Of a stretch of 64,000 nucleotides of DNA, positions 988 to 55,855 are shown one piece after another. The notes beneath the pieces are model-generated. The model saw nothing but the letters and a program-made list of their open reading frames with translations, was not told the DNA's origin and did no database searches. This stretch comes from Daejeonella sp. JGW-45 (GTDB taxonomy: Bacteria > Bacteroidota > Bacteroidia > Sphingobacteriales > Sphingobacteriaceae). Each line of letters opens with the position of its first letter. Position 1 is the first letter of the stretch. The translations under genes were made by a program, and so were the position numbers. Location: the NCBI RefSeq assembly GCF_029360805.1, contig NZ_JARKNC010000010.1, positions 299,287-363,286 of the forward strand, written 5' to 3'.

Positions 988-1636
988 TCGTTTGCAAAAT
1001 GGGGCCGTATGGTTTTACGGTCCCATATTTTTAATTGTCTTTACAGCTACGGTGTATTTGTCACTCGTTACGGAGGCGGCTGGTCTCCAGGAGTCTCCGG
1101 CCAGATTTAAAATCAGGGTAAAGGCGAAAGAGGTGCAGCGGATTTACACTTCCCAGCTGGGAGTACGGGAAAAGGCTTCTAATTCGGGTCCGGCAGTTGA
1201 GCAATACCTGCGCTATGTTAATCTCCCGAAAGGAAATCCATGGTGCGCAGCCTTTGTATGCTGGGTGCTGGGGAAGGCGGGGGTTGATAACCCGCGGACG
1301 GGGTGGTCGCCGGCGTTGTTCCCGGCTAAGAGGGTGATTTGGGAGAGGGCGAAAAGGGAGTTGAAACCCGATAGCTATCGGGAGGGCGATGGTACCCGGG
1401 GTATGGCGGGGCCACGAATGGGTGACGTGTTCGGGATCTATTTCCCTGAAAAGGGGCGTATTGCCCATGTAGGCTTCGTGGATGAATGGGATGGCACCTG
1501 GGTGCTTACCGTGGAAGGGAATACGAATGGGGAGGGGGAAGGATCCCTCGCTTCGCCCGGGATGACGACGGACGGAGTGTACAGGAAGAGGCGGTTGGTG
1601 AGGTCAGTTTTTAGGGTGGCGAGGTACGTCGAGTAG
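977..1636 (+). CDS. CHAP/NlpC-like cysteine peptidoglycan hydrolase
   Basis: A 219-residue protein with a hydrophobic N-terminal segment (about 11-34) that could be a signal peptide or signal anchor, followed by a papain-like amidase/endopeptidase fold. The catalytic set is visible: Cys in PWCAAFVCW (about residue 90), His in RIAHVGFV (about 163), and an acidic/Asn position in VEGNTN. Such enzymes cut peptide bonds in peptidoglycan in the periplasm. The stretch ELKPDSYREGDGTRG lies between two core motifs and is encoded by a 16-bp palindrome that also occurs at 55716, so a repeat appears to have been taken up in frame. It overlaps the upstream gene, and a lipoprotein-like gene follows. A lysis or wall-remodelling role is inference. 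Confidence 0.75.
   Translation: MKTDRLQNGAVWFYGPIFLIVFTATVYLSLVTEAAGLQESPARFKIRVKAKEVQRIYTSQLGVREKASNSGPAVEQYLRYVNLPKGNPWCAAFVCWVLGKAGVDNPRTGWSPALFPAKRVIWERAKRELKPDSYREGDGTRGMAGPRMGDVFGIYFPEKGRIAHVGFVDEWDGTWVLTVEGNTNGEGEGSLASPGMTTDGVYRKRRLVRSVFRVARYVE
1358..1382. repeat. Palindromic repeat inside a coding sequence
   Basis: Bases 1367-1382 form a perfect 16-bp palindrome, CCCGATAGCTATCGGG. With nine flanking bases on the left (25 bp in all) it is identical to 55707-55731, which is intergenic. Here it lies in frame within the peptidoglycan hydrolase gene. Confidence 0.9.
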
Positions 1637-55602: not shown

Positions 55603-55855
55603 GGGGGAGGTGAAAACTGAAAGTGGAAAACTGAAAACTGAAAACGGAAAACTGAAAAGGTGAGAGTTGAAAGTGGAAAACTGAAAACTGAAAACTGAAA
55701 AGGTGAGAGTTGAAACCCGATAGCTATCGGGTGGAAAGTTGAAAACGGAAAGCATAGCACAGCGTTTAGTTCACTTTCAGTTTTCAGCTTTCAGTTTTTT
55801 TAATCAAACCCCTCTATTCTCTATTCCCTATTCTCCATTCTCTATTCCCCATTCT
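55603..55855. repeat. Repeat-filled gap between convergent genes
   Basis: From 55610 to 55753 there is a degenerate array of GAAAACT/GAAAGTGG/GGTGAGAGTT units in two larger blocks. It holds the second copy of the 25-bp palindromic repeat (55707-55731). At about 55770-55800 inverted units (CTTTCAGTTTTCAG) appear, so the RNA could fold back in either direction and end transcription from both sides. From about 55812 a pyrimidine-rich array (CTATTCTC/CCATTCTC type) runs into the end of the flippase gene. Confidence 0.85.

Follow-up and report, generated by a model that had tools for sequence, protein, structure and literature searches.

An 18-bp hairpin found across a bacterial class and probably captured in frame in a peptidoglycan hydrolase-like gene of Daejeonella sp. 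JGW-45

The 64,000-nucleotide stretch of Daejeonella sp. JGW-45 DNA analysed here (the window) contains a peptidoglycan hydrolase-like ORF of 219 amino acids at positions 977–1636 of the forward strand. It carries a CHAP domain (PF05257, E 8.5e-8), which passes the Pfam cut-off. Immediately upstream, at 331–987, is a gene for a DUF6266 protein (PF19781), with which the start of the hydrolase overlaps by a few bases. The initial annotation had described a 25-bp string in the hydrolase gene with a second copy elsewhere in the window, a perfect 16-bp palindrome inside it, and its translation as KPDSYRE between two conserved blocks. All three observations hold. Identical 25-mers GAGTTGAAACCCGATAGCTATCGGG are located at 1358–1382 and 55707–55731, and both contain the perfect palindrome CCCGATAGCTATCGGG, at 1367–1382 and 55716–55731 respectively. 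The hydrolase reads the palindrome as K-PDSYR-E, flanked by WSPALFP and GDVFGIYF. The adjoining GAGTTGAAA (1358–1366, forward strand), a heptamer-type sequence common to the coding and the intergenic copy, is translated within RELK. Even when up to two mismatches are allowed, the window still has just these two palindrome sites, where dinucleotide shuffles average 0.01.

The second copy is an intergenic 18-bp hairpin at 55715–55732 with an outer A..T pair. It lies directly past a stop codon, within an array of degenerate 7-bp repeats of the GTTGAAA, GTGGAAA and ACTGAAA types that extends over 55610–55750 on the forward strand (limits approximate, set by eye). The same array includes a hairpin-less match at 55633–55693, in which AGT takes the place of the hairpin. 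Degenerate tracts of the GTTGAAA and ACTGAAA types are found 3' of genes both here and at 1689–1712, right after the hydrolase.

Within the 4,095,353 bases of the host genome, the palindrome is present in 28 exact copies, compared with none for a control of equal composition obtained by reading the palindrome pattern backwards, which is itself palindromic. The whole 25-mer was found 3 times around these 28 copies. It is rarer than the palindrome because GAGTTGAAA belongs to a separate host repeat, whose degenerate 7-bp units, GTTGAAA and its variants, are arrayed between genes. The 25-mer described in the initial annotation does recur, but the actual element is an 18-bp hairpin. Only two of the 28 host copies fall into sense ORFs, namely that of the hydrolase, read as PDSYR, and that of an M14 peptidase, read as PIAIG, as judged by a mechanical criterion (an open frame of at least 120 amino acids with at least 40 codons on either side). 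A third frame meeting this criterion is the antisense of the hydrolase, and the remaining copies were not assigned by homology.

The extent of the hairpin is reflected by its base pairing. The bases flanking the 16-mer pair with each other in 243 of 255 distinct copies, compared with a mean of 143 and a maximum of 160 in shuffles. At offsets 2 to 5 outside the 16-mer, pairing in the same copies falls under the shuffle level. Once two later-fetched genomes had been added, outer-base pairing was observed in 307 of 322 copies; the later copies by themselves gave 69 of 72. Since the outer bases pair and the pairing ends there, we define the unit as a hairpin of 18 bp whose end varies in sequence but remains paired. 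Its 7-bp stem begins with an outermost pair that is mostly T-A, also A-T or C-G, and continues as CCCGAT/ATCGGG around an AGCT loop; the 18-mer is predicted to fold into this stem and loop at about -9 kcal/mol. Two of the three reading frames of the hairpin are open, giving PDSYR and PIAIG. The coding copy of the window, with outer bases A..A, is among the 15 of 322 copies that are unpaired.

The outer bases of the host copies are A..T in 17 cases, T..A in 10 and A..A in the coding copy of the window alone. At least three heptamer-type motifs lie within 60 bp of 16 of the 17 A..T copies, whereas the T..A copies have none or one. The ten T..A copies sit in partial copies of stable RNA genes: four in fragments by an intact tRNA-Leu(CAA), one by tRNA-Leu(TAA), two in tRNA-Ile fragments and three in 5S-like sequences. 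At locus L022:4719-5770, an intact tRNA-Leu(CAA) is adjoined by four copies of its 5' part, 226–300 bp apart, and in each of these the hairpin replaces three D-loop bases. Similar hairpin-bearing tRNA fragments occur in other genera (L038, L176, L196 and L218).

Five other genomes of the genus provided 13 related ORFs, and alignment of the hydrolase with these revealed that the palindrome lies in a hypervariable linker. This linker, bounded by the LF..IW and GD[VI]F blocks, comprises 27 residues in the window hydrolase, and its length in the relatives ranges from 23 to 104. It is rich in translated intergenic repeats: besides the hairpin itself, it contains heptamers (SRKLKVES) and a different palindrome (LPAGQAG). 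SRKLKVES-type translated heptamers occupy the place in related hydrolases that corresponds to GAGTTGAAA in the window. Two hydrolase genes of genome G006 carry the exact hairpin in the PIAIG frame. Copies with one mismatch are read as PDSHR in G009 and PNSYR in G019, and one of these two hydrolases also holds a more decayed copy, QADSYRL. The G019 hydrolase moreover provides a coding unfilled site, with ATT where both G006 genes have A[16]T. The data contained no direct unfilled partner for the window hydrolase, whose nearest relatives, 63 and 60% identical to it across the matched part, have unrelated linkers. The initial annotation had proposed a spreading palindrome that became coding sequence, a claim that homologues with the same residues and no palindrome would have refuted. 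KPDSYRE without the palindrome was found in none of the 13 related ORFs, and the proposal is supported by the homologue comparison together with the genomic copy number.

A second hairpin-captured gene of the host genome encodes an M14 carboxypeptidase (PF00246; L306, G000:C3:335093-336445; also L031:5001). Two matched parts of this protein are separated by 51 to 56 residues; the counterpart stretch measures 3 to 5 residues in 14 genomes and 11 in G018, the closest relative (79% identity). This comparison covers 15 other genomes of the genus with lengths derived from coordinates, four relatives being shown residue by residue. The insert is made up of translated heptamers, a partial hairpin (VDSYRV) and a full hairpin (NPIAIG), in different frames. 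The linkers of hydrolase and peptidase present intergenic repeats building new protein sequence. Further cases emerge from comparison with solved homologues. In the EPSP synthase of L039, there are five extra residues at PDSYR when compared with 5xwb and 3nvs, within an N-terminal part of the match that scores weakly, and the EPSP synthase of Lacibacter cauensis (L091) has seven extra residues at PIAIG relative to 7tm4. Residues 141–168 of an RNase HII from a Bacteroidetes metagenome genome (L088) lack a counterpart in 3o3g save for 3 residues; this 28-residue stretch (L088:7415-7480) contains PIAIG and other translated repeat-like sequence. The evidence for in-frame insertion is thus the unfilled hydrolase site, the M14 gene against its 15 relatives, and the EPSP synthases and RNase HII against solved homologues. 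The hairpin is also read through in a hybrid kinase (L096), a Y2_Tnp transposase (L132), an M23 peptidase (L155) and a DUF1501 protein (L095), for which absence in relatives is not shown. A Pfam search of ten hairpin-bearing proteins left six without a match. At RNA level, a Cyclobacteriaceae genome (L112) has an RNase P RNA, scoring 246 bits, with the hairpin inserted near its 3' end. At L151:7778-7793 it stands in frame (PIAIG) right before MPNHLH, which we take to be the HUH motif of Y1 transposases, in a cut ORF without a Pfam match.

Joined-flank alignments revealed that homologous hairpin-less sites differ by a short segment. This segment is GTT in tRNA-Leu, ATT in tRNA-Ile, AGT or ACT in heptamer arrays and ATT in a hydrolase, among others. 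Same-locus unfilled sites exist in the host genome itself for tRNA-Leu, tRNA-Ile and the 5S 3' end. An alignment-free scan of the 322 copies, using 12-base flanks and gaps of 0–12, returned an unfilled match for 124 copies and none for 198. The best gap was 3 in 42 of the matched copies, 4 in 15, 5 in 14, 6 in 11 and 10 in 15, the last equalling 3 plus one heptamer. The remaining 27 are scattered over gaps of 0–2, 7–9, and 11 or 12. The commonest exchange is therefore 18 bp for 3 bp, a net gain of 15 bp. Gap 3 ranks top both in the first set (31 of 86) and in the later two-genome set (11 of 38). With permuted right flanks as a control, 23 of 322 copies matched, 4 of them at gap 3. It should be noted that many unfilled matches share repeat families and are not independent. 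In alignment-based counting, a net gain of 18 bp came second (16 of 56), with many of the matches weak. A strict rule of 3 bp for 18 at R-N-Y targets, obeyed by 19 of 19 cases in the alignment-based analysis, was softened by the alignment-free scan and is not retained.

For T..A copies, the replaced segment begins with a purine and ends with a pyrimidine in 14 of 20 cases at gap 3, in 35 of 46 at gaps 3–5 and in 39 of 62 at gaps 3–7, compared with 25% expected for random bases. The base preceding a T..A hairpin is seldom T (5% vs about 30%). Since the hairpin lacks an orientation, the analysis itself contributes part of this purine..pyrimidine symmetry. Target-site duplication is not supported: apparent repeats at 4, 11 and 18 bp correspond to the phase of the 7-bp arrays, and the unfilled sites lose bases. 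As no insertion between close strains was seen, mobility is inferred from these comparisons.

The palindrome is present in 30 of 98 genomes of the host's class, inferred to be Bacteroidia (host included), and in none of 297 from the other classes of the phylum (395 genomes sampled, class totals tallied by hand). Within the genus, copy number ranges from zero, in 6 of 20 genomes, to 48 in G002. A scan of named genomes yielded at least 118 stretches with the palindrome. Among the matches listed, one of 80 titles reads 'uncultured bacterium' and the other 79 carry Bacteroidota lineage names. Genera with hairpin-bearing named isolate genomes include Flavobacterium and Mucilaginibacter. Viral contigs contain the palindrome in 42 stretches. 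The repeat is not confined to this organism, being class-wide and present in viral contigs as well. No account of the sequence, or of such elements in Bacteroidetes, was found among the matches listed from the open-licence literature searched. The exact 16-mer had no match in that literature's text, and the titles retrieved by a half-site search look unrelated among the matches listed.

Taken together, the palindrome is probably a mobile hairpin of very small size that enters existing DNA and takes the place of a few bases, most often three, with in-frame copies adding residues to proteins. Each new copy would mostly bring a gain of 15 bp. As such a gain keeps the frame and two of the three frames are open, a copy in a permissive loop would be translated as about five extra residues. 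The window copy sits in the hypervariable linker of a CHAP hydrolase, and in this gene family the linker has collected translated intergenic repeats of several kinds. The spread, the pairing of the ends, insertion with loss of a few bases and in-frame reading are observed as far as sequence comparison can establish them; an enzyme is inferred. This enzyme would act in trans, as a hairpin-recognising or target-symmetric nuclease or transposase that inserts the hairpin. A symmetric target, purine..pyrimidine with no T outside, would fit a dimeric nuclease. A role of phages in transferring the hairpin from one species to another is likewise an inference, as are the production and function of the hairpin-containing proteins. 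The explanation has weak points: the replaced length is not constant, and the window hydrolase has no unfilled site and unpaired A..A outer bases. A more far-reaching version, which we put forward tentatively and rate at somewhat under an even chance, is that the hairpin represents minimal mobile DNA of a new class. In this version, a still undiscovered enzyme that recognises hairpins would write the 18-bp unit, which many species of the class share and viral contigs contain, into genomes in place of a few bases, as a rule three and frequently purine-N-pyrimidine.

No mover gene was found. One explanation, which we regard as unlikely, is that the palindrome belongs to the REP type and owes its movement to a REP-associated tyrosine transposase (RAYT, Y1_Tnp), perhaps one of the Bacteroidetes subclass 2.6, for which atypical hairpins are reported. 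REP and GTAG-/CGTC-tagged repeats are likewise short hairpins, mainly intergenic and in part intragenic, and hairpin repeats that also occur within genes are typical of REPs (PMC3733652). Subclass 2.6 is reported mostly from Bacteroidetes, with atypical structures on its flanks (PMC6006769). Y1_Tnp matches were detected in 13 of 20 genus genomes. At a threshold chosen post hoc (E<1e-20), the palindrome is present in all nine genus genomes with a strong Y1_Tnp match and in 5 of the 11 others (one-sided Fisher 0.012; 0.07 at E<1e-10 and 0.72 for any match). Given this tracking within the genus, 80 class genomes were tested. There the palindrome is present in 20 of 55 genomes with a Y1_Tnp match and 4 of 25 without, that is, 20 of 24 palindrome genomes have a match compared with 35 of 56 palindrome-free ones (one-sided 0.078, 0.069 and 0.054 at the three thresholds, the last for any match). 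This association is weak, threshold-dependent and uncorrected for phylogeny or genome size, and lends at most weak support to RAYTs. Against it, the 4 palindrome genomes without a match stand alongside the richest genome, G002, which also has none. A RAYT gene would be expected to lie beside copies of its repeat, yet the palindrome occurs within about 1.5 kb of none of 29 fetched Y1_Tnp loci (20 from the genus and 9 from the class, not all matches), even at three mismatches. Moreover, unlike REPs, the hairpin is accompanied by a GTAG foot in only 2 of 322 copies, by GTGG in 6, and has no CGTC foot. A loose RAYT motif scan gave one site. The fetched loci gave little support for a larger parental insertion sequence bearing identical ends, as half-sites lying apart from complete copies showed no excess (81 vs 7–91 for shuffled 8-mers). 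Half-sites facing each other within 3 kb were represented by one pair in 1.8 Mb of fetched loci, in two overlapping loci.

Spread without a dedicated enzyme, through template switching at hairpins or recombination among arrays and RNA-gene fragments already holding the hairpin, strikes us as rather improbable. It would agree with the enrichment of copies between direct repeats of at least 7 (29 of 252, shuffles 1.4) and at inverted-repeat tips (9 of 252, shuffles 0.9), and with the concentration of host A..T copies in heptamer arrays and of T..A copies in RNA-gene fragments. It does not readily account for the preferred net gain or for the same sequence appearing class-wide in unrelated single-copy contexts, including EPSP synthase and RNase P RNA. 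The highly constant palindromic sequence could also suggest a selected functional site that is not mobile, such as a protein-binding operator or an RNA hairpin, and some copies cap terminator-like hairpins (L190, L269). However, copy numbers of 0 to 48 in one genus, copies in coding sequence, tRNA fragments and arrays, and the common unfilled homologous sites make this very hard to sustain. That the window match is due to chance and KPDSYRE is ordinary conserved protein sequence can practically be dismissed. The hydrolase gene is intact and the bases flanking its palindrome are unpaired, but relatives carry the palindrome elsewhere in the linker and in another frame, in addition to the shuffle result and the absence of these residues from palindrome-free relatives. 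A mobile hairpin thus remains our preferred explanation.

This class-wide small hairpin, captured in frame, belongs with coding palindromes, and its mover is unidentified. Rickettsia offers the best-known examples of palindromic repeats captured in frame. The hairpin is reminiscent of Rickettsia palindromic elements (RPEs) and Wolbachia palindromic elements in lying in frame within preexisting ORFs, and the likeness to RPEs drawn in the initial annotation is apt for this outcome. It does not extend to size or foot sequence. RPEs are reported as repeated palindromes of 100–150 bp inserted in frame without destroying preexisting genes (PMC3767692), and some types (RPE-4, RPE-6) have CGTC at one end (PMC3733652). 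The hairpin has only 18 bp, occurs in a different phylum and has neither a GTAG foot nor a constant CGTC foot; CGTC stands beside it in 3 of 322 copies and overlaps its first bases in 33. CGTC repeats are reported from Bacteroidetes among five phyla (PMC3733652). MITEs, described there as 70–300 bp long with terminal repeats of 15–30 bp, share with the hairpin the character of non-coding repeated palindromic DNA, whereas the hairpin measures 18 bp overall and lacks target duplication. Yeast mitochondrial GC clusters are also small palindromic, transposable-element-like units with an unknown mover, GC42 having 42 nt and an AG target duplication (PMC4478555). Unlike these, the hairpin is bacterial, produces no duplication and usually entails base loss. 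The perfect inverted repeats in nematomorph mitochondrial coding sequence reportedly measure up to 284 bp (PMC6649704), whereas here there is one constant short sequence.

The hairpin shows how a very small spreading piece of DNA can lengthen proteins. In the more far-reaching version of the explanation, the usual gain of 15 bp would be a natural generator of five-residue protein insertions and RNA loop extensions. As the unit is 18 bp long, usually preserves the frame, occurs in genera with named isolates and leaves readable unfilled sites, the long-standing question of how small palindromes spread and give rise to protein segments becomes testable by strain comparison and genetics.

When the four loop positions are freed, 35 places are found in the host genome compared with the 28 exact copies, and thus seven have other loops. 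CCTGCC..GGCAGG was rejected as a second abundant host family (3 copies vs 1 for its control). In the variant TCCGATAGCTATCGGA, of which seven host copies were read, both partners of the next stem pair are changed, so that the pair is compensated. This variant (L291-L297) sits in a different repeat set, with ends GGA..TGACA or TCA..TCC.
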